NCBI RefSeq assembly: GCF_021044625.1
Contig: NZ_CP087999.1
Span: 3,307,001 to 3,371,000 of the forward strand
Length of the DNA: 64,000 nt
From: Geomonas sp. RF6
GTDB lineage: Bacteria; Desulfobacterota; Desulfuromonadia; Geobacterales; Geobacteraceae
Reading direction: 5' to 3'
Both the position numbers and the translations under genes were made by a program. Shown here in pieces: positions 13,025 through 37,862 of this stretch (positions are counted from its first letter, which is position 1; the number at the start of each line of letters is the position of its first letter). The notes under the pieces were generated by a model, which was given only the letters and a program-made list of their open reading frames with translations, ran no database searches and had not been told where the DNA came from.

Positions 13025-13215
13025 CTAGCAGAGCAGGAGCTCAGGCGTCCCCTCCCTTTCAAGGGGAGGGACAGGGTGGGGATGGGGTAGAGGCTGGTAC
13101 GTGCTGCCCCCCATCCCCCTCCTGTCCTCCCCCTTGAAAGGGGAGGAACGCGCTGCCAACGGCGTAGTTCTCATCCATCTCCTCCCCGAATTCCCGGATG
13201 AGCCATATTTGAGAA
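13025..13215. repeat. Palindromic MITE-like element, copy 1
   Basis: Left arm GTCCCCTCCCTTTCAAGGGG...GGGTGGGGATGGGG and right arm CCATCCCCCTCCTGTCCTCC...CTTGAAAGGGGAGG are complementary, so the whole can fold into a long hairpin. The flanks (TAGCAG.GCAGGAGCTCAGGCG on the left, ACGCGC.GCC.ACGGC.TAG on the right) recur in the copy at 22113. The outer edges are approximate. It fills most of the gap between prfB and the SPOR/NlpC gene. Confidence 0.7.
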
Positions 13216-20654: not shown

Positions 20655-20744
20655 CGATGTGCAGGGGGGCGCTCTGTGCGCGCCCCCCGCTTGCATTTGC
20701 ACCGGCCCCGAATCGGGGTGCGGTGTCTCACTGGAGGGAGTTCC

Positions 20745-21977
20745 ATGCGTTTTCTTTCTTTCAGACATGTCTTCACTGCCTGCGCCATCCTGTCCATGAC
20801 CGCCTGCTGCACCGCCGCCAAAAAACCGATGGGGAATGCCGAACACCCGTATCCGCTCCCGTCCCCGCCGAAGGTCGGTGACATCGCCCATCTCCCCACC
20901 GGGATCGTGGTGACCCCGGAGCAGATGCTCAATGTGGCCGCCGACGCGCGCATCGTCTATCTTGGGGAGACCCACGACAACCCTGCCTCGCACCGCCTCG
21001 AGCTTGAGCTCCTGAAGGGGCTCTCCGAGCGGCACCCGGGTATGCAGGCGCTGGGGATGGAAATGTTTTCTCCCTCCCAGCAGCCGGTCCTGGACCGCTG
21101 GGTGGCGGGGGAGTTGGACGAGAAGGCATTCCTCAAGGAGTCCCACTGGTTTGATCAGTGGAAGATGGATTTCGAGTACTACCGCGACCTCCTTGTCTAC
21201 GCCCGCGACCACAAGGTACCGGTAATCGGGCTGAACGCGGAGAAGAGCGAGATGGCGGCGCTGCGCGGCAAGAAGGACGAGGAACTGACCGCGCAGGAGA
21301 AGGAGGCGCTCTCAAAGCTCGACTTCAAGGACCCGTACCAGCGGGCAATGGTGCAGGCCGTCTACGGCGGGCACATGCACGGCGCCATGGGGCTCGACTC
21401 CTTCGTGCGTGCGCAGACCATATGGGACGAGACGATGGCGGAGTCGATCGTGAACTACCTCAATTCCCCTGCGGGAAAAGGGAAGAGGATGCTGGTCATC
21501 GCCGGCGGCAATCACATAAGCTACGGTTTCGGCATCCCGCGCCGCGCCTTCCGGCGCCTCCCTGCCTCTTACGTCCTCGTTGGGGGGGAGGAATTGCACG
21601 TCGGGGCGGAGAAGCAGGATCGCATGATGGACGTCCAGTTCCCCGAGTTCCCCATGGTCCCCTACGACTTCCTCGCCTACCTTTCATATGAGGATCTGCC
21701 GAAGAAGGTGAAGCTCGGGGTGCAGATCGAGAAACCGGAGGCGGGCGCCGGGGTCCTGGTGCAGGACGTGGTTACCGGCTCCAGCGCGGAAGCCGCGGGG
21801 ATAAAGAAGGGTGACCGGATCCTCTCCATCGACGGCGAGACCGTCTCCGAGAGCTTCGACCTCGTCTACGCGGTGCAGCACAAGCGCCCGGGCGAGCACG
21901 CCGTACTGGAAATCGACCGGGGAGGGGAGCGCAAGAAGCTCGACGTCACCCTCAAGGAACCGGGCGCCGCCCCGTAG
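20745..21977 (+). CDS. ChaN-family lipoprotein with C-terminal PDZ domain
   Basis: 410 aa. A lipobox signal (ILSMTAC) and a proline-rich linker lead to a ChaN/DUF399 domain (RIVYLGETHDNPASHRLELELL, MEMFSPSQQPVLDRWVAG, GGNHISYGFGIPRR), whose Campylobacter relative binds haem. Residues about 325-400 form a PDZ domain (GVLVQDVVTGSSAEAAGIKKGDRILSI). In an organism rich in c-type cytochromes a haem-related envelope role is plausible but inferred. The start is ATG 20745 behind GGAGGGAG; the longer frame upstream lacks a signal peptide. Confidence 0.83.
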   Translation: MRFLSFRHVFTACAILSMTACCTAAKKPMGNAEHPYPLPSPPKVGDIAHLPTGIVVTPEQMLNVAADARIVYLGETHDNPASHRLELELLKGLSERHPGMQALGMEMFSPSQQPVLDRWVAGELDEKAFLKESHWFDQWKMDFEYYRDLLVYARDHKVPVIGLNAEKSEMAALRGKKDEELTAQEKEALSKLDFKDPYQRAMVQAVYGGHMHGAMGLDSFVRAQTIWDETMAESIVNYLNSPAGKGKRMLVIAGGNHISYGFGIPRRAFRRLPASYVLVGGEELHVGAEKQDRMMDVQFPEFPMVPYDFLAYLSYEDLPKKVKLGVQIEKPEAGAGVLVQDVVTGSSAEAAGIKKGDRILSIDGETVSESFDLVYAVQHKRPGEHAVLEIDRGGERKKLDVTLKEPGAAP

Positions 21978-22492
21978 CGCCACAAAAGGTTCCTGCGCGT
22001 TTCAGGGGCAAGGGACGTGTAACAGATTTAATGGACGAAATGCGAAGAAAATAATGGATTGAAGCCTCTTTTAGTGGGAGAGGGGGCGTAAGTAACTTGG
22101 CCCGTCTTCCTTTAGCAGCGCAGGAGCTCAGGCGTCCCCTCCCTTTCAAGGGGAGGGACAGGGTGGGGATGGGGTAGAAGTTGGAGACCGCGCGTGAGCT
22201 AACCCCATCCCCCTCCTGTCCTCCCCCTTGAAAGGGGAGGGACGCGCCGCCCACGGCTTAGCTCCCATTCGGCTCCCCTGAGCCCGATTTAGATGTCCTA
22301 CCTGAAGGCCCGTCGGCACCCTGCCGCGGGCCTTCTTCGCGTCCACCCACGCCGCGCCCCCAGTCCCCGGTTTCCCTCTTTCCGCCATTTCTCAATTCTT
22401 GACCTACGTCACAATCCTTCCCTCGTAATGTTGCTATTTTTCTACCATCCAATGCTCTACTATCCACTGTCCAACATATCGGGGAGGCCGTA
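21978..22492. other. Intergenic, MITE-like element and leader
   Basis: 515 bases with no convincing gene. The middle holds copy 2 of the palindromic element. The last 100 bases before the radical SAM gene are AT-rich and may carry its promoter, but the best TTGACC/TAATGT pair has a 21-base spacer, so I do not call one. Confidence 0.6.
22113..22290. repeat. Palindromic MITE-like element, copy 2
   Basis: Nearly identical over its arms to the element at 13025: shared left flank TAGCAGCGCAGGAGCTCAGG, central complementary arms, and shared right flank ACGCGCCGCCCACGGCTTAG. The loop between the arms differs between copies. Ends approximate. Confidence 0.7.
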
Positions 22493-23881
22493 ATGTCCGC
22501 TCAAAACTCAGCGCTCAAGATGATCCAGGATTATGTATCGCCACAAGAAAGGGAGGTGTTCGAGGTCCCGGCACCGCCGCCGGAGCATCCGGCGCTGCGG
22601 GAATACCCGTCCCGGCTCTTCGTGGAAACGACGACCCGCTGCAACCTGAAGTGCCGCATGTGCGTCAAGCAGACGGAAGGAAACTGCATCGCCGAAGGTG
22701 ACATGGCGCCGGAAACCTTTGCAGCCCTCGAACCGGCGCTCCCCCACACGGAGACGCTGGTCCTGAACGGCATCGGCGAGCCGCTGCTGCACCGCGGGCT
22801 GGAGAATTTCATCCGCCGCGCGAAGGAGTTGATGCCGCACGGATCGTGGGTCGGGTTCCAGAGCAACGCCCTCCTCCTGCACGAGGCGCGCGCCCTCTCA
22901 CTCGCCGAGGCGGGGGTCGACCGGATCTGCCTCTCCATGGACGGCGTGAACCCCGACACCTTCCGCGAGATCAGGGAAGGAGGGGAGGTAGCGGACCTGG
23001 AAAGGGCACTCCTGGCACTTGAGAAGGCGAAGTCGGCGACCGGGTCGGCCCTTCGCGTCGGGATCGAGTTCGTGGTCATGCGCGAGAACGCCCGGGAGCT
23101 TCCGGATGTGCTGCGCTGGGCTGCGGCGAAGGGGGTGAGCTTTGCGATCGTCTCCCATCTCCTCCCGTACGAGTCGGAGCATATGGGGAGTGTCGCCTTT
23201 GATGCCAACAGCGACGAAGCGGTGGAATTCTTCAAGCCGTGGCAGGAGCGTGCCCGTCGCGAGGGGCTGGACCTGCGGCGCTATTTCAAGATCCTGGTGA
23301 AGTATCTTCGCGCCCGCACCGCGGAGGAGCAGAAGATCGTCGACCTGGTGCAGGCGATGAAGGACGAGGCGCGCAAGCGCGACATCTTCATTCACTGGGA
23401 CAACCTGCTCGCCAGGGACGAAGGGTGGATCGAGGAGCTTGGCGCGATCTTCGCGGAGGCGCAGGCGGTGGCGGACGAGGCCGGGCTCGAGCTGCAGCTG
23501 CCGGCGATCATGCCGCGCAGCGAGAGAAACTGCGAGTTCGTGGACAACGGCTCCGCCTTCATCTCGTGGGACGGAGGGGTTCACAACTGCTACTTCCTCT
23601 GGCACCGGTTCAGCTGCTATTCATCCAACAGCAAGAAGTATGTGCAGCCGAAGGTATTCGGGAATGTAGCGGAGCAGGGGATCAAGGAGATCTGGAACAG
23701 CACGGAGTTCCGGTCGTACCGCACGCAGGTGCTCGGGAAGGATTACCCGATCTGCTCCAACTGCAACCTCGTGCCGTGCGAGTACCTGTACACCGAGAAC
23801 TTCGAGCAGGACTGCTACGCCAACACCGTCGCCTGCGGCGACTGCTACTGGTGCATGGGGCTGTACCGCTGCTTGCAGTAG
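22493..23881 (+). CDS. Radical SAM/SPASM protein, putative metalloenzyme maturase
   Basis: 462 aa. The radical SAM cluster motif is CNLKCRMC at about residues 50-57, followed by the GIGEPLLH SAM-binding stretch. The C-terminal part has a SPASM-like cysteine set (GGVHNCYFLWHRFSCY, then CSNCNLVPC) and an unusual extra cysteine tail ACGDCYWCMGLYRC ending almost at the C-terminus. This layout resembles a Geobacter group annotated as putative metalloenzyme radical SAM/SPASM maturase; I recall that annotation but cannot check it, and no target is known. GGGGAGG lies six bases before the ATG. No partner gene or precursor peptide is adjacent on the same strand. Confidence 0.82.
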   Translation: MSAQNSALKMIQDYVSPQEREVFEVPAPPPEHPALREYPSRLFVETTTRCNLKCRMCVKQTEGNCIAEGDMAPETFAALEPALPHTETLVLNGIGEPLLHRGLENFIRRAKELMPHGSWVGFQSNALLLHEARALSLAEAGVDRICLSMDGVNPDTFREIREGGEVADLERALLALEKAKSATGSALRVGIEFVVMRENARELPDVLRWAAAKGVSFAIVSHLLPYESEHMGSVAFDANSDEAVEFFKPWQERARREGLDLRRYFKILVKYLRARTAEEQKIVDLVQAMKDEARKRDIFIHWDNLLARDEGWIEELGAIFAEAQAVADEAGLELQLPAIMPRSERNCEFVDNGSAFISWDGGVHNCYFLWHRFSCYSSNSKKYVQPKVFGNVAEQGIKEIWNSTEFRSYRTQVLGKDYPICSNCNLVPCEYLYTENFEQDCYANTVACGDCYWCMGLYRCLQ

Positions 23882-24060: not shown

Positions 24061-24089
24061 CTTCCCGCAACTCCCCGATATACCCAATA

Positions 24090-24124
24090 AAAACGCCCCG
24101 CCGAAAGATCCGGCGGGGCGTTTT
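24090..24124. terminator. Bidirectional terminator between radical SAM and M6 protease genes
   Basis: AAAACGCCCCGCCG, loop AAAGATC, CGGCGGGGCGTTTT. It has T-runs on both strands and lies about 20 bases after the M6 stop codon, so it chiefly serves the minus-strand protease and can also stop read-through from the left. Confidence 0.85.
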
Positions 24125-24144
24125 CCATTCCATTTGCAGGAGCG

Positions 24145-26850
24145 CTACCGCACCGTCCACGTCACCTTCGTCGGCACCGTCGACCACACCCCATAGGTGC
24201 TCTTGGCGTACACCGCGAGGGTGTGGGTGCCGGACCGCACGTTTGTCAGCACGATCTTCTGACTCACCGGCGTCTCCGCACTCAAGGCACCTCCATCGAG
24301 GGAGTACTTGTACGCCACCACATTCGTGCCGCTTACCGTGAAGGTATAGCTGTTCGTCACTGTCGATGTCCCGGTGCCGGTCGGAACGGTGTTGCCGGCG
24401 ATGACGTAGCTGCTCGTTTTCACCGCCTCCACATTCCCCGCTGCGTCGACTGCAAAATATTTCAGCGTCGTGCTCGCAGGCACAGCTATGGGGCTCGCGT
24501 ACCTCGCACTGGCTGTCGTCGGCGTAGTGCCGTTGGTAGTGTAGTAGATCGTCGCGCTTTCATTTGCCACCAGCGTCACTGTCTGTGCCGCGGCGTACGA
24601 TCCGCCCGGCGGGGTCGCCGTTGTTGTGGGGGCCACCGTGTCTATGGTCCATTTCACAGTTGTCGGTGAGGCACTCGATTGCCAGTTCCCGGCGGCGTCA
24701 CCGGCAATTGCATACAGGGTGTGGACGCCGTTGGTTAGCCCCGACAGGGCGGTGACGGTCCCCGCGGCGACGTTTCCGGACCACGCGGCGCTGTCGAGTT
24801 TGTAGCGGTAGACGGTGACTCCGGCATTGTTGACCGTGAAGCTCACCGAGGTGTTGCGGGTGACTCCTCCGTTCGATGCGTTGGCGAGTGTGATCGCCGC
24901 CATCGGGGCAGAGGTGTCGAGCGTAATGGTATCGCTGGCGACAGGGGAGACGGTTCCGGATGCGTCGCGGAATCGAGCCGAGACGGTACGCGTTCCGTCC
25001 GCACCGGCAGCAAGCACCCAGGCTTTCGTGGTCGCGTACGCCTGCCAGCCGCTCCAGTTGGTCCCGTCGTTGCTGAAGGACATCTGCTGCACTGTCGCCG
25101 GTGCCGGGGCGATGGCTGAAACGCCGAGGGTGACCGAAACGGTATTGGTGTACTGGGCGGTGCCGTTGATGGTGATCGTGCCGGTGAGGGTCGATGCGGG
25201 CTGGCTGAACGCGACCGTCATGCTGCTGCCCGGCACCGAGATGCTGTTGAGCCAGCGGTAGCTCGGCCCCCCATAGAAGGCAGAAGACGGGGTGCTGGTG
25301 GCATTGAAGCTCGTGTTGTTCCCGCTGTAAAATAAGGTCTGCTGCCGCCCGTAGCAGGTCGGTGTGGTCATCATGTCGCACGGCTTCGCCGCTTGTGCAA
25401 TGACCACACCCTGGTGCGCCGCCGCTCCCGACTGGTTCGTTCCCATCGCGTTGTCGACGTGCTCGACGAGAAGCCCTCCGCTCCAGCTCCCAAGGAGGCT
25501 GGTCATGCCGAGATCCCACCCCTGCGGCCTCCTGTTTTCCACTAGGTAATACTCGGTGGCGCTCAGTGTGGTGTTGGTCATCTTCAGGGTGTTGCCGGCT
25601 GCCGCCAGCGGCACACCGAGAGTGACAGAGGAATTTCCGGCCGGCACCAGCGGGGTGGACCAGCCGGTATACTCGCGGCTCCAGGCATCGAGGCCGACGG
25701 GGGTCGTTCCGGCGCTTTCCCCGGGCGCCGCGCCCCAACTCCCCGCCGCCATGAGAGAAAAGGCGCCGAGGCCGGCGTTTCTCTGGGCGGTGTCGTAGAG
25801 GTCCGGGAGTCCCACGAGCTGGTGCCCGAGCTCATGCGCGATGACGCCGATGCCGTGCTGCACGGAGGAGTTGTTGAGCTCGCCGCTGCGTGCCCATACC
25901 GGGAAGTAGATTCCTGCCGCGCTGAGCCCGCCGGATGAGTACGATGCCGCATGTGCCCAAACGCTGGGGATCCTGGAGCTCCCGGACTGCTCATACCCCG
26001 CGACCACGAAATAGACCACCGCCTCGTTACGCTCCAGGAGCCGGTCGCCATCGGTGTCCAGCGTGGAGAAGCGGACATACTGGTCCGCCTGGTTCAGCGC
26101 CGCCGCCACCCACTTCTCCTCGGAGGTGCCGTTGTACTCGTGCGGCATCGCCAGGTTTACCGTTACCACGCCGGCAGGTTTGCCGCTTTGGGTGTGGGGA
26201 ACGGGGGTGATGGCGAGCTTGCCGAAGGAGTTGTCCTTGTAGTAGTTGGCGACCGATTTGACCCCCGCCGTCGTGCTGAACACCGCGTCGTACCACTGCT
26301 GGGGCGTGGTCACCATCGTCCGGTCGCTGAAGTTCACCAGCACGATGAGCAGCTTCTTCGAGCCGGAGACCGGAGAGACGGTCCATCCGGAGGAGGGGGA
26401 GATGGAGGAAGATGCCGTGGCCGTCGTGCCGGCAGCTTTCTGAACGGAGCGCACAGCCGCTCCTGTTTCCTTCAGGCGCTGCTGGTACATCTTGTTGATT
26501 CCCTCCAGATGCCGCTTTTCACGCTCCGTATCGCGCCGGGGCTTGACCCCCGCAGGGATGAAACTCGGGGCGTTCCTCCCGCCCGGGACGACCTTGATGT
26601 TGCTCGTCTGCAGGGTGCCGTCGGGAGCCTGCTCGGCATACTCCCACACGCCGCTCCTGGGGTTGCGCAACACGGTATGCCCGGTCTCCGTCGATTCCAG
26701 CCAGTGCTGGAATTCGTCACCGCGCGGCTTTGCCTTGAAGCTCGTGCCGTCCGGTTGGCGCACCTCCGTCGTTTCGGGTACAGCGGGACCGGCAAAGGCT
26801 GAGCTCGCCGCCACGAGGAGGCGCGCAGCTGTCAGTATCGATTTTTTCAT
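24145..26850 (-). CDS. Secreted M6-family metalloprotease
   Basis: 901 aa. Signal peptide to about residue 20, a propeptide-like region to about 150, then an M6 peptidase domain with the zinc motif HELGHQLVGLPD (His339, Glu340, His343, Asp350). InhA-like M6 enzymes are secreted proteases. The C-terminal half (about 530-901) consists of Ig-like/chitobiase-C-type modules, including TIYYTTNGTTPTTASARY and two related beta-sandwich repeats ending in VKWTID and VTWTV, likely for binding surface polymer. AAAAGGAG precedes the ATG. Convergent with the radical SAM gene; no obvious operon partner. Confidence 0.88.
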   Translation of the reverse strand: MKKSILTAARLLVAASSAFAGPAVPETTEVRQPDGTSFKAKPRGDEFQHWLESTETGHTVLRNPRSGVWEYAEQAPDGTLQTSNIKVVPGGRNAPSFIPAGVKPRRDTEREKRHLEGINKMYQQRLKETGAAVRSVQKAAGTTATASSSISPSSGWTVSPVSGSKKLLIVLVNFSDRTMVTTPQQWYDAVFSTTAGVKSVANYYKDNSFGKLAITPVPHTQSGKPAGVVTVNLAMPHEYNGTSEEKWVAAALNQADQYVRFSTLDTDGDRLLERNEAVVYFVVAGYEQSGSSRIPSVWAHAASYSSGGLSAAGIYFPVWARSGELNNSSVQHGIGVIAHELGHQLVGLPDLYDTAQRNAGLGAFSLMAAGSWGAAPGESAGTTPVGLDAWSREYTGWSTPLVPAGNSSVTLGVPLAAAGNTLKMTNTTLSATEYYLVENRRPQGWDLGMTSLLGSWSGGLLVEHVDNAMGTNQSGAAAHQGVVIAQAAKPCDMMTTPTCYGRQQTLFYSGNNTSFNATSTPSSAFYGGPSYRWLNSISVPGSSMTVAFSQPASTLTGTITINGTAQYTNTVSVTLGVSAIAPAPATVQQMSFSNDGTNWSGWQAYATTKAWVLAAGADGTRTVSARFRDASGTVSPVASDTITLDTSAPMAAITLANASNGGVTRNTSVSFTVNNAGVTVYRYKLDSAAWSGNVAAGTVTALSGLTNGVHTLYAIAGDAAGNWQSSASPTTVKWTIDTVAPTTTATPPGGSYAAAQTVTLVANESATIYYTTNGTTPTTASARYASPIAVPASTTLKYFAVDAAGNVEAVKTSSYVIAGNTVPTGTGTSTVTNSYTFTVSGTNVVAYKYSLDGGALSAETPVSQKIVLTNVRSGTHTLAVYAKSTYGVWSTVPTKVTWTVR

Positions 26851-35062: not shown

Positions 35063-35662
35063 CTACTTCATTAGGATTTTGAGCGCGGCCTTCAGCGTTC
35101 CTTCCACGGTTGCATCGGAGCCGATCTTCAGCTCCGCGAGGGCTTTTTGTACCACTGCCTCTTTGTAGCCGAGATTGATGAGGGCGGAGACCACGTCGTC
35201 GCGCACTTCCTGCGATGCCGCCACCGGCGCCGCCTCCTGGTGCGGAGCGGCAAAGCCGAGCTTCTTGATCTTCTCCTTCAGCTCCAGAACGAGTCGCTCC
35301 GCCGTCTTCTTTCCGATACCGGGGATAGCGGAGAGTCGCGCCAGATCGCCCCGCACGAGGCTCTCCGCGAGCTCCGCAGGTTCACTGTTGGAGAGGATGC
35401 CATTTGCCAGCTTCGGCCCGACCCCGGAGACGCCGATGAGGAGCTGAAAGAGCTCCTTCTCCTCCTGGGTGCGGAAGCCGTACAGGTTTATCGCATCTTC
35501 CTTCACGGAGGTGTGGATCTGCAACGACACGGCGCCCCCCTCGGCAGGGAGAGCGTAGTAGGTGGAGAAGGGGATCTGCACCCGGTACCCGACACCGTTG
35601 ACGTCGAGGATGATGAAGTCCGGAGACTTGTGGGCTATTTTGCCGGTGAGCAGAGCGATCAT
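35063..35662 (-). CDS. ruvA: Holliday junction-binding protein RuvA
   Basis: 199 aa, the family length. OB-fold N-terminus (MIALLTGKIAHKSPDFIILDVNGVGYRV), two helix-hairpin-helix motifs (LIGVSGVGPKLANGIL and LSAIPGIGKKTAERLVLELKEK), an Ala/Pro-rich linker and a C-terminal UBA-like domain III that contacts RuvB (VVSALINLGYKEAVVQKAL). The tetramer holds the four-way junction for RuvB. ATG at 35662 behind AAGGAG. The longer reading upstream passes through repeat DNA and is rejected. Confidence 0.97.
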   Translation of the reverse strand: MIALLTGKIAHKSPDFIILDVNGVGYRVQIPFSTYYALPAEGGAVSLQIHTSVKEDAINLYGFRTQEEKELFQLLIGVSGVGPKLANGILSNSEPAELAESLVRGDLARLSAIPGIGKKTAERLVLELKEKIKKLGFAAPHQEAAPVAASQEVRDDVVSALINLGYKEAVVQKALAELKIGSDATVEGTLKAALKILMK

Positions 35663-35771
35663 GACTGCTTCTCCTTGTTGCGAGATGCGTGGTCCAACTT
35701 CGGCATGCCGAAGCGGATGTGCGGGTAAGTTCGGCATGCAGAAGTCGCCGATTTCTTCGGAACCCGCAGCC

Positions 35772-35815
35772 ATACCTCCCCTCCGTTTCAAGGGACAGGG
35801 TGGGGATAGGGTTGA
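35772..35815. repeat. Partial MITE-like arm
   Basis: CCTCCCCTCCGTTTCAAGGG ACAGGGTGGGGATAGGGTT matches one arm of the elements at 13025 and 22113 with deletions; a short CGGTGGGGATGGGGTG piece follows at 35930. Confidence 0.5.
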
Positions 35816-35827
35816 GCCGGGCGTCAA

Positions 35828-35926
35828 TGTAGGCCGGGATAAGCCGCCAGGCGTTCCCGGCGGTCCACCACAGCCGCAGCCAAGCACCAGCGAATGCCGG
35901 AAACGCTACGCTTATTCCGGCCTACA
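35828..35926. repeat. REP/BIME-like palindrome
   Basis: TGTAGGCCGGGATAAGCCGC...GCGTTCCCGGC and GCCGGAAACGC...GCTTATTCCGGCCTACA in inverted arrangement. It separates ruvC from ruvA. Confidence 0.75.
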
Positions 35927-35950
35927 ACGGCACGGTGGGGATGGGGTGCA

Positions 35951-36442
35951 TCAAGCTCTCATCCTGATCGCATTCATCGCCGAGGAGTGCGCGTGGCAGA
36001 TCGCAACGGCCAGGGAGTCCGAGGCGTCCTCCTGGGCGATCTCCGGGAGGTTCAGGAGCGCCTTGATCATCTGCTGCACCTGTACCTTCTCGGCCCGCCC
36101 GGTTCCCACCACCGCCTGCTTTACCTGGAGGGCAGTATATTCAAAGACCGGCAGCCCCGCCGATACGGCCGCGACGATCGCTGCCCCCCGCGCCTGCCCG
36201 AGCTTGAGGGCGCTCTGCGCGTTCTTCGCCAGAAAAACGTTTTCCACCGCGACCGCGTCCGGCTTGAACTCATCGATGATGACGCTGAGCCCGCTGTAGA
36301 TCTTCGCCAAGCGCTCCGGGAACTCCTTCGCACTCTGGGTGAAGATGGCGCCGTTGTCCAGATGGATCAGGCGGTTCCCCTGCTTGGAGATGAGGCCGTA
36401 ACCGGTGATCCGGGAGCCGGGATCAATTCCTAAAATTATCAA
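35951..36442 (-). CDS. ruvC: Crossover junction endodeoxyribonuclease RuvC
   Basis: 163 aa Holliday junction resolvase. Catalytic acidic residues lie in the usual contexts: Asp in [14 protein letters not shown], Glu in [20 protein letters not shown], and the C-terminal acidic pair in [16 protein letters not shown]. Start chosen at TTG 36442 ([10 protein letters not shown]) behind AGGGGGG, giving the standard N-terminus; the longer frame adds 23 unrelated residues. Follows yebC in the same direction, the order usual in many bacteria. Confidence 0.95.
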
Positions 36443-36472
36443 TGTGCCCCCCTGACGGAAAGAAGTAGAAAT

Positions 36473-36598
36473 GCAAAAGGCGCAAAGAGTGCCAGCGGGC
36501 CAATGCGGCACGAAAAGCTGAGGAGGCGCCGTTGCCGCCGCCCGAGACTGCCGTCGTGCCTTGATCCGTCTGGTTCTTTGCGCCTTTGCGGCTCACGC
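36473..36598. repeat. Inverted CGCAAAG-type repeat pair
   Basis: GCAAAAGGCGCAAAGAG at the left and CTTTGCGCCTTTGCGGCTC at the right, inverted to each other, enclosing about 90 bases between yebC and ruvC. Confidence 0.5.
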
Positions 36599-36609
36599 TC
36601 TTTCTCTGG

Positions 36610-37353
36610 CTACATCAGTTTTTCCATTTCCTCTTCGGCGATGTCGAAGTTCGCGTAGACGTTTTGTACGTCGTCGCAGTCTTCCATGCGCTCCATGAGT
36701 TTCAGCATGTTCTCCGCCTGCTTTCCTTCCAGCTTTACCTGAGTCTGCGGGATCATGGTAACTTCTGCGGACTCCGGCTTGAAGCCTGCCTTCTCCAGCG
36801 CTTCCTTCACAGCGTTGAAAGAGGAGGGGTCGGTGAGGACCTCGATCTGGTCCCCTTCGTCGGTGACGTCGTCGGCGCCTGCCTCGATGGCGGCTTCGAA
36901 GAGCTTGTCAAAGTCGGTCCCTTCCGGGAAGATCATGAGGCCTTTCTTGTCGAAGAGCCAGGCGACGCAGCCGGCCTCCCCCATGTTGCCGTTGCACTTG
37001 GTGAAGATACTCCTGACTTCGGAAACGGTGCGGTTGCGGTTGTCGGTCATGACCTCCACCAGAACCGCGGTACCGCCGGGGCCGTACCCTTCGTAGGTCG
37101 TCTCCTCGTAGTTGGTGCCCTCGAGCCCGCCCACACCTTTCTTGATGGCGCGCTCGACGTTGTCCTTCGGCATGTTTTCGGCCTTCGCCTTGTCGATGGC
37201 GGTCCTGAGACGCGGGTTGCCGTCCGGGTCCCCACCTCCGATTTTCGCTGCGACGGTGATCTCCTTGATGATTTTGGTGAAGATCTTCCCTCTTTTGGCG
37301 TCAGCAGCTCCCTTCTTATGTTTGATGGTGCTCCATTTATTATGACCTGACAT
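36610..37353 (-). CDS. YebC/PmpR-family protein
   Basis: 247 aa, starting with the invariant [20 protein letters not shown] and containing [12 protein letters not shown] and [23 protein letters not shown]. Long annotated as a DNA-binding regulator; more recent work ties members to translation of proline-rich stretches. Its position before ruvC is conserved. The start is ATG 37353 with AAGGAAG; the longer frame upstream is not credible. Confidence 0.93.
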
Positions 37354-37391
37354 AAGCGACTTCCTTTCGAGAGGTTTTGTGAAAACGGGGA

Positions 37392-37421
37392 ATACTAGCA
37401 TGGCCAAAGAAGAGTTGTAAA
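37392..37421 (-). promoter_or_regulatory. Sigma-70 promoter of yebC-ruv
   Basis: On the minus strand TTTACA (37421-37416), 18-base spacer, TAGTAT (37397-37392), about 40 bases before the yebC start. Confidence 0.6.
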
Positions 37422-37490
37422 GTGGGAAAATGGTGGCTAAACTGTAGCGGAATTCAGGACTGGGGCGGCTTTAGCCCCTCGGGAGACGAA

Positions 37491-37862
37491 ATGAGCGCTA
37501 CCGGGAACGGGTGGAAAATCATGAGGTTCTTCTTGCTATCTCTGTGCACTTTGCTGCTCGCCGCGGGGTGCTCGACGGCTCCCGTGGCCAAGAAGGAGCT
37601 GCCCCCCATCCTCACCCAGGAGGAACTCCTGCGCCCTTGGCAAAAGCTCGGGGTGCTGGAGGTTCACCGAAAACGGTACGGTTCCTCTTCCGATGTAAGC
37701 CCGGAAGATTATGCGTGGGTGTACGAGTCCCTGCGCCAGGAGGCGGCCCGCATTAGCGCCGACGCCGTTATTTTCCCGGAGGTGCGGGTGGAGATGGACA
37801 GCTACTACCTCTTTCCGACCAGCGAGATGTACGGCAAAGGGGTCGCCATCAAGTTTCAATGA
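37491..37862 (+). CDS. Small lipoprotein, unknown function
   Basis: 123 aa (or 113 if it starts at ATG 37521). A lipobox LLLAAGC leads to a compact domain with YAWVYESLRQEAARISADAVIFPEVRVEMDSYYLFPTSEM; the pattern of an alternating strand after 'ADAVI' resembles small YbjQ/LPXTG-free envelope lipoproteins but no family is claimed. GGGAG lies five bases before ATG 37491. About 80 bases upstream of the oxidoreductase gene, possibly co-transcribed. Confidence 0.7.
   Translation: MSATGNGWKIMRFFLLSLCTLLLAAGCSTAPVAKKELPPILTQEELLRPWQKLGVLEVHRKRYGSSSDVSPEDYAWVYESLRQEAARISADAVIFPEVRVEMDSYYLFPTSEMYGKGVAIKFQ

Follow-up and report, generated by a model that had tools for sequence, protein, structure and literature searches.

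A TIGR04311-family radical SAM/SPASM protein of Geomonas sp. RF6 and its possible part in the maturation of one aldehyde:ferredoxin oxidoreductase subfamily

The locus and its gene product

The window analysed was a stretch of 64 000 nucleotides from Geomonas sp. RF6 (contig NZ_CP087999.1, forward-strand positions 3 307 001 to 3 371 000), whose genome of 5.26 Mb is designated G000. On the plus strand, an open reading frame at 22493-23881 starts with ATG, stays open throughout and encodes a protein of 462 residues, P0001, which was assigned by profile matches and an AlphaFold2 model. P0001 was matched by the NCBIfam model TIGR04311 at 631.3 bits (curated cut-off 400), with profile positions 1-423 of 423 aligned to residues 38-461, the C-terminal cysteine region included. 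The model bears the name 'radical SAM/SPASM family putative metalloenzyme maturase' and is the very Geobacter family with which the original prediction had associated the gene; in membership P0001 shows no difference from it, the tail being part of the whole-profile match. The second-best NCBIfam model was TIGR04317 (W_rSAM_matur) at 245.6 bits, under its cut-off of 380; the better of two matched stretches paired residues 40-242 with profile positions 4-203 of 349. Both models were matched at E ≤ 1e-30 by 72/72 of the aligned sequences described below. Pfam domains Radical_SAM (PF04055; 56 bits, residues 44-210) and SPASM (PF13186; 57.3 bits, residues 347-425) were both over their cut-offs, and the radical SAM CX3CX2C motif reads CNLKCRMC at residues 50-57 (22640-22663, plus strand), which bears out the radical SAM/SPASM identity first proposed. 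The nearest solved chains by sequence were remote (BtrN, E 3e-10; MoaA, 2e-4), and no close kinship to a characterized radical SAM/SPASM enzyme was found. P0001 is thus an unremarkable, intact protein of a family that has a name but no proven substrate; in searches of open-licence papers, no function was assigned to TIGR04311 among the matches listed.

Upstream on the same strand, at 20676-21977, lies a gene for a protein with a ChaN domain (PF04187; haem-binding uptake) and a PDZ domain, a possible partner. The gap between the two genes contains a G+C-rich inverted repeat with 44-nt arms (22132-22245), probably not part of the system, of which 36 nt are found again, letter for letter, at 13053-13088. 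The convergent neighbour at 24145-26850 (minus strand) encodes a Peptidase_M6 domain (39 bits), as had been predicted. Between the convergent genes, at 24088-24126, an A-run, a GC-stem and a T-run resemble by eye a two-way terminator, which the scan did not call; the promoter/terminator scan and Rfam gave no matches over the P0001 locus. The description of the locus as an orphan held in that neither a conserved small open reading frame within 1 kb (compared with 22 clade-A relatives) nor an enzyme partner was found, and has to be amended for the ChaN and PDZ gene upstream.

Cysteine content and predicted fold

Cysteines were compared in an alignment of 72 sequences, comprising P0001 and 71 proteins from 70/80 loci (the best 80 of 173 relatives); the remaining ten, which were fragments, had broken frames or carried an insertion, were excluded, and L039, a further copy in the window genome with several cysteines gone, was also outside the alignment. 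Positions C50, C54, C57, C146, C347, C366, C421, C424, C429, C441, C448, C451 and C460 were cysteine in 72/72 sequences and C375 in 69/72. These include the three residues of the radical SAM cluster motif (C50, C54, C57) and four of the SPASM domain (C347, C366, C421, C424; residues 347-425, 23531-23767, plus strand). The C-terminal extension (residues 429-460, 23777-23872, plus strand) holds the invariant C429, C441, C448, C451 and C460 together with C454, which was cysteine in 58/72 (S in 7, G in 3, N in 3 and A in 1). The tail itself reads ACGDCYWCMGLYRC, with C448, C451, C454 and C460. Judged on the alignment, C448, C451 and C460 are a family trait and C454 is not.

The canonical SPASM cysteines follow the pattern CX9-15GX4C-gap-CX2CX5CX3C-gap-C. 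The first half of P0001 fits this spacing (C347-X13-G361-X4-C366), as does the CX2C, whereas the spacing after C424 differs (C424-X4-C429, then no cysteine four residues on). Past residue 340, after the barrel, nine cysteines are invariant, or 11 if C375 and C454 are counted; the threshold set for a third complete auxiliary [4Fe-4S] cluster was 12 or more conserved ligand cysteines in this region. Since eight of the nine invariant residues would fill two [4Fe-4S] clusters, the count fits two auxiliary clusters plus one residue. A third metal cluster in the tail is unsupported by these counts, which leave room for a smaller site or one with non-cysteine ligands. The extra C-terminal cysteine group noticed in the original prediction is therefore present and, save for C454, conserved, but because the tail belongs to the TIGR04311 profile, the idea that it forms a further metal site peculiar to P0001 is unsupported.

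An AlphaFold2 model of P0001 built with the 72 sequences was confident (mean pLDDT 89, pTM 0.87) and consisted of a barrel beginning near residue 40, a helical insert at residues 228-306 and a SPASM-like part; residues 1-24 were below pLDDT 50. By predicted secondary structure, the insert (23174-23410, plus strand) lies between the sixth strand of the barrel and the SPASM part, and across the 72 aligned sequences the length of the stretch 223-306 stays within 80-87 residues. High-ranking solved fold matches were BlsE, DesII, SkfB, SuiB and anSME (Z 21-24, 13-22% identity). BlsE, SkfB, SuiB, anSMEcpe and PqqE have a barrel and a C-terminal cluster domain as in P0001 (VIA-align Z 20-24), from which P0001 differs by its 13-22% identity, its helical insert and its cysteine-rich tail.

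Family tree and copies in the window genome

The tree comprised 115 proteins out of 145 candidates after removal of duplicates. The 10 rows that include P0001 form a supported group (SH-aLRT 98) nested in clade A, to which 35 rows were assigned by hand; clades B and C had 38 and 15 rows, and the titles of the records in further TIGR04311 clades name Deferrisomatales, Syntrophaceae, Nitrospirae, Spirochaetes, Desulfobulbaceae and other groups. Three members are carried by G000: P0001 and L038, both of clade A and not sisters in the tree, and L039 of clade C. The last (L039:8447-9862, plus strand; G000:C1 about 3483446-3484861) is the copy that lies in the aldehyde:ferredoxin oxidoreductase (AOR) cluster of G000. 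It is without C421, C424, C441 and C460, keeps the radical SAM motif, shows no frameshift and sits on a long branch.

In one close relative of the window gene, an in-frame TGA stands at the C424 position (CSN-TGA, L079:9039-9041). A selenocysteine reading was tried and rejected, as no stem after the TGA beat shuffled sequences (z 0.3 and 0.8), and the TGA is read as nonsense, error or decay.

Co-distribution with aldehyde:ferredoxin oxidoreductases

AORs were searched for in 112 genomes of the order with the AOR of G000 itself as query. Two close types were defined against it, beta at ≥65% identity and gamma at about 51-56%, and were assigned from a list of matches that reached down to about 209 bits, lower than either type requires. 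The 60 family-positive genomes were collated by hand and include G069 and G074 with their partial matches; 58 were over the TIGR04311 cut-off. A close AOR (beta or gamma) was present in 57/60 family-positive and 7/52 family-negative genomes, so that 57 genomes had both, three the family only, seven the AOR only and 45 neither (Fisher's test, 4.8e-20). Within the six informative genera the association persisted (CMH p 9e-8). A control radical SAM family, TIGR04303, compared with the same AORs showed no association (18 genomes with both, 11 with the family only, 46 with the AOR only and 37 with neither; p 0.66). Phylogenetic profiling across the order, which had been proposed as a check on the gene, thus shows co-occurrence of TIGR04311 with one AOR subfamily.

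The association was also resolved by clade. Clade C accompanied AOR-beta in 24/24 genomes and clade B accompanied AOR-gamma in 27/31. For clade A (11 genomes), AOR-beta was complete in 10 and in fragments in the 11th, with gamma in none; none of the four genera to which these 11 genomes belong has a family-negative member, which leaves the within-genus test mute on clade A.

None of the three genomes scored as family-only is a strong exception: AOR-beta fragments lie at contig ends in G051, the TIGR04311 gene of G074 stops after about residue 217, and that of G082 lies on a 3.4-kb contig. A close AOR without TIGR04311 was found in seven genomes (G030, G036, G054, G055, G062, G096 and G097). 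The AOR cluster is otherwise kept in G030 and G036 with TIGR04311 gone, and in G096 the radical SAM gene was seen as a remnant only. As the AOR persists where TIGR04311 has been lost, the gene is not strictly needed. The number of AFOR_N genes per genome (mean 5.5 in family-positive against 1.9 in family-negative genomes, kinship ignored) was dropped as a measure since kinship was uncorrected, and was replaced by the AOR-subtype test.

AOR clusters, mycofactocin and the modification site

The clade-C cluster contains an AOR, an Fe-alcohol dehydrogenase, MoaD-like and MoeB-like proteins (named from sequence, without a family search), a MoaA equivalog and electron-transfer proteins. Its AOR matched the solved AORs 9mqx (E 3e-93), 1aor (7e-82) and 8c0z, the last titled tungsten-containing (3e-73), and by homology these AORs are probably tungsten enzymes. 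Pelobacter carbinolicus is a related bacterium. Proteomics identified two of its acetaldehyde dehydrogenases, which carry a tungsten-dependent annotation and respond to tungstate by induction (PMC4275255). An AOR of at least 49% identity lay within the same locus (flanks up to 10 kb) in 15/80 loci, the best 80 of 173 relatives, and the 15 include records from Syntrophaceae (Syntrophus), Nitrospirae and Spirochaetes.

G000 carries four AOR-beta genes, 80-100% identical to the query, the nearest of them about 150 kb from P0001. Among the clade-A loci examined, no clade-A gene was in an operon with an AOR; 5/33 clade-A genes (4 loci) had one at a distance of up to 12 kb, where 0.87 would be expected, which is only suggestive, the 33 leaving out the small pieces G050:C73, G051:C52 and G100:C219.

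Clade-B genes adjoin iron-sulfur and flavin electron-transfer genes, not an AOR. In both loci examined (L313 and L315, from G083 and G011), AOR-gamma is inside a mycofactocin cluster, as judged by MftC (351 bits against a cut-off of 265, G083) and MftF (389 against 280, G011); these clusters also hold a mycofactocin-system OYE oxidoreductase. The link of clade B may therefore partly be a link with mycofactocin, and its reading as a purely AOR association is weakened. The TIGR04311 loci themselves yielded no MftC apart from a match of 26% identity in L076/L138. Many further MftC-like matches share contigs with AOR-gamma.

To look for a modification site on the AOR, 34 close AORs from family-positive genomes were compared with 10 from family-negative genomes, and no column was changed in all ten of the latter. 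Columns 115, 119, 121 and 455 differed only in G030 and G036, which belong to the same genus, column 285 only in the four gamma rows, and for columns 326, 381, 525 and 587 the change was confined to two or three rows. No AOR residue emerged as a candidate site.

Proposed role in AOR maturation

The reading that we tentatively prefer, at somewhat under an even chance, is that TIGR04311 serves the maturation of one AOR subfamily and that P0001 most likely acts in trans in G000. By its motif, P0001 would bind SAM on the [4Fe-4S] cluster held by C50, C54 and C57 and yield a 5'-deoxyadenosyl radical. Homology and the invariance of the cysteines suggest two auxiliary clusters in an extended SPASM domain, for which the cysteine tail would give the last ligands. 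The enzyme may act on the tungstopterin cofactor or on the AOR protein: the co-occurrence shows the association with the AORs, and the act is what we infer from it. Since L039 has lost auxiliary cysteines and G000 has four AOR-beta genes, P0001 and L038 may act in trans; P0001, as a clade gene outside the AOR cluster, would then serve four closely related AORs and stand in for the cluster-borne L039, which is short of auxiliary-cluster cysteines.

A fuller version, which we regard as possible though doubtful, makes TIGR04311 a dedicated maturase with its clades matched to AOR subtypes (clade B to gamma, clades C and A to beta). In G000, L039 would be losing its auxiliary clusters and the unlinked clade-A copies, P0001 included, would have replaced it in trans, and the copies in arsenic operons would be a second use of the chemistry. 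The original prediction had called the target of the enzyme unknown. The substrate is indeed unproven; the matter is not wholly open, because the distribution and the neighbourhoods point to the AOR pathway, with arsenic operons as a second context.

Arsenic operons and other explanations

Clade A might instead handle arsenic or another metalloid by modifying a metalloid-binding protein or a metalloid compound, with P0001 as an unlinked copy. Arsenic genes (ArsR, ArsC, Acr3 or ArsA relatives) were just upstream or in the operon in 11/80 loci, the best 80 of 173 relatives (L106, L108, L109, L110, L111, L114, L125, L127, L169, L170 and L175); L041 shares this context, and L157 and L159, with an ArsR match about 2 and 6 kb away, were outside the count. 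The TIGR04311 genes concerned are spread over several separate clades of the tree, clade-A sister groups among them. The L175 operon of Desulfobulbus runs ArsR, permease, ArsE-family thioredoxin, radical SAM gene, with 9-12 bases between neighbours, and Geobacter GAC1 (L108) shows the same arrangement; the L175 permease is SaoE/CuZnOut-like, below both cut-offs, and the thioredoxin is over the TIGR00412 cut-off. The double-zinc-ribbon gene of the arsenic operons was matched in 8/112 genomes, all of them clade-A genomes, with two matches containing an internal stop and one a piece of 26 residues. G000 carries one Acr3, but its locus is without a TIGR04311 gene and the double zinc ribbon was not found in this genome. 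Around the genes of the 10-row subclade of P0001 itself, no arsenic gene of the searched set was nearby, and elsewhere TIGR04311 is largely tied to AOR. We consider this explanation unlikely.

At L312:6471-8690 (plus strand; G000:C1 about 35470-37690), the gene for the Acr3 arsenite transporter of the same genome has hgcA behind it, which encodes the mercury methylation corrinoid protein (440 bits; cut-off 275).

The upstream neighbour of P0001 raises the question of whether the clade-A enzymes of G000 act on or with adjacent ChaN/TIKI-superfamily haem- or metal-binding proteins. Only four ChaN genes were found in the 5.26 Mb of G000, and two of them adjoin its two clade-A genes and share their strand: one is upstream of P0001, the other (at L038:7048-8400, minus strand) downstream of the clade-A gene of L038. 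As these two ChaN domains share only 30% identity and P0001 and L038 are not sisters, the pairing does not go back to one recent duplication, and with ChaN genes beside both clade-A copies it is not certain that nothing relevant lies beside P0001. Against such a partnership, none of the other 10 clade-A genomes has a ChaN gene, tblastn found none in the other TIGR04311 loci compared, and the family occurs in 55/112 genomes, many of them without clade A; the distance from the ChaN gene to that of P0001 is about 515 bp and holds the repeat, and the pairing was noticed post hoc among many gene families. We consider this explanation improbable.

Equally improbable is that P0001 is a dispensable or decaying leftover with no current job. 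Decay of TIGR04311 is seen elsewhere, in the lost cysteines of L039, the remnant in G096, the shortened gene of G074 and the in-frame TGA of L079, but P0001 is full length, has kept all 13 alignment-invariant cysteines and gives a confident model.

That P0001 matures a peptide (RiPP) from a distant precursor gene is, in our view, very improbable. In favour of it, the nearest folds include the peptide maturases SkfB, SuiB and ChlB and the sactipeptide enzyme 5wgg. Against it, the same fold list contains BlsE, DesII and MoaA, which act on small molecules; no conserved open reading frame of 20-120 residues was found within 1 kb of the P0001 gene (against 22 clade-A relatives, 23 loci); and the model has no folded N-terminal extension.

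Discussion

The closest known parallel to the maturation role preferred here is TIGR04317, the tungsten cofactor oxidoreductase radical SAM maturase. TIGR04317 genes sit beside that of a tungsten oxidoreductase, and the 'cmo' cofactor-modifying gene beside aor in Pyrococcus is presumably the archaeal counterpart. The AOR context is common to TIGR04317 and to other TIGR04311 clades, whereas P0001 falls below the 380-bit cut-off of the former and is not beside an AOR; the TIGR04317 profile is also shorter (349 positions) and would leave little room for a helical insert of the P0001 type. To our knowledge, the finishing of the cofactor in tungsten enzymes of the AOR family is poorly known. Two recent tungsten-enzyme papers (PMC13328260 and PMC12096430) do not mention 'radical SAM', and PMC13328260 names WorX as a presumed pterin-processing protein.

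New here are the co-distribution of TIGR04311 with an AOR subfamily, the recurrent arsenic-operon context and, in G000, a degenerate cluster copy alongside intact unlinked copies; these three points were not found among the literature matches listed from open-licence papers. The copies in arsenic operons raise a second, unexplained use of TIGR04311. Across the order the family tracks one AOR subfamily, and the natural losses and the degenerate in-cluster copy make this link genetically testable.
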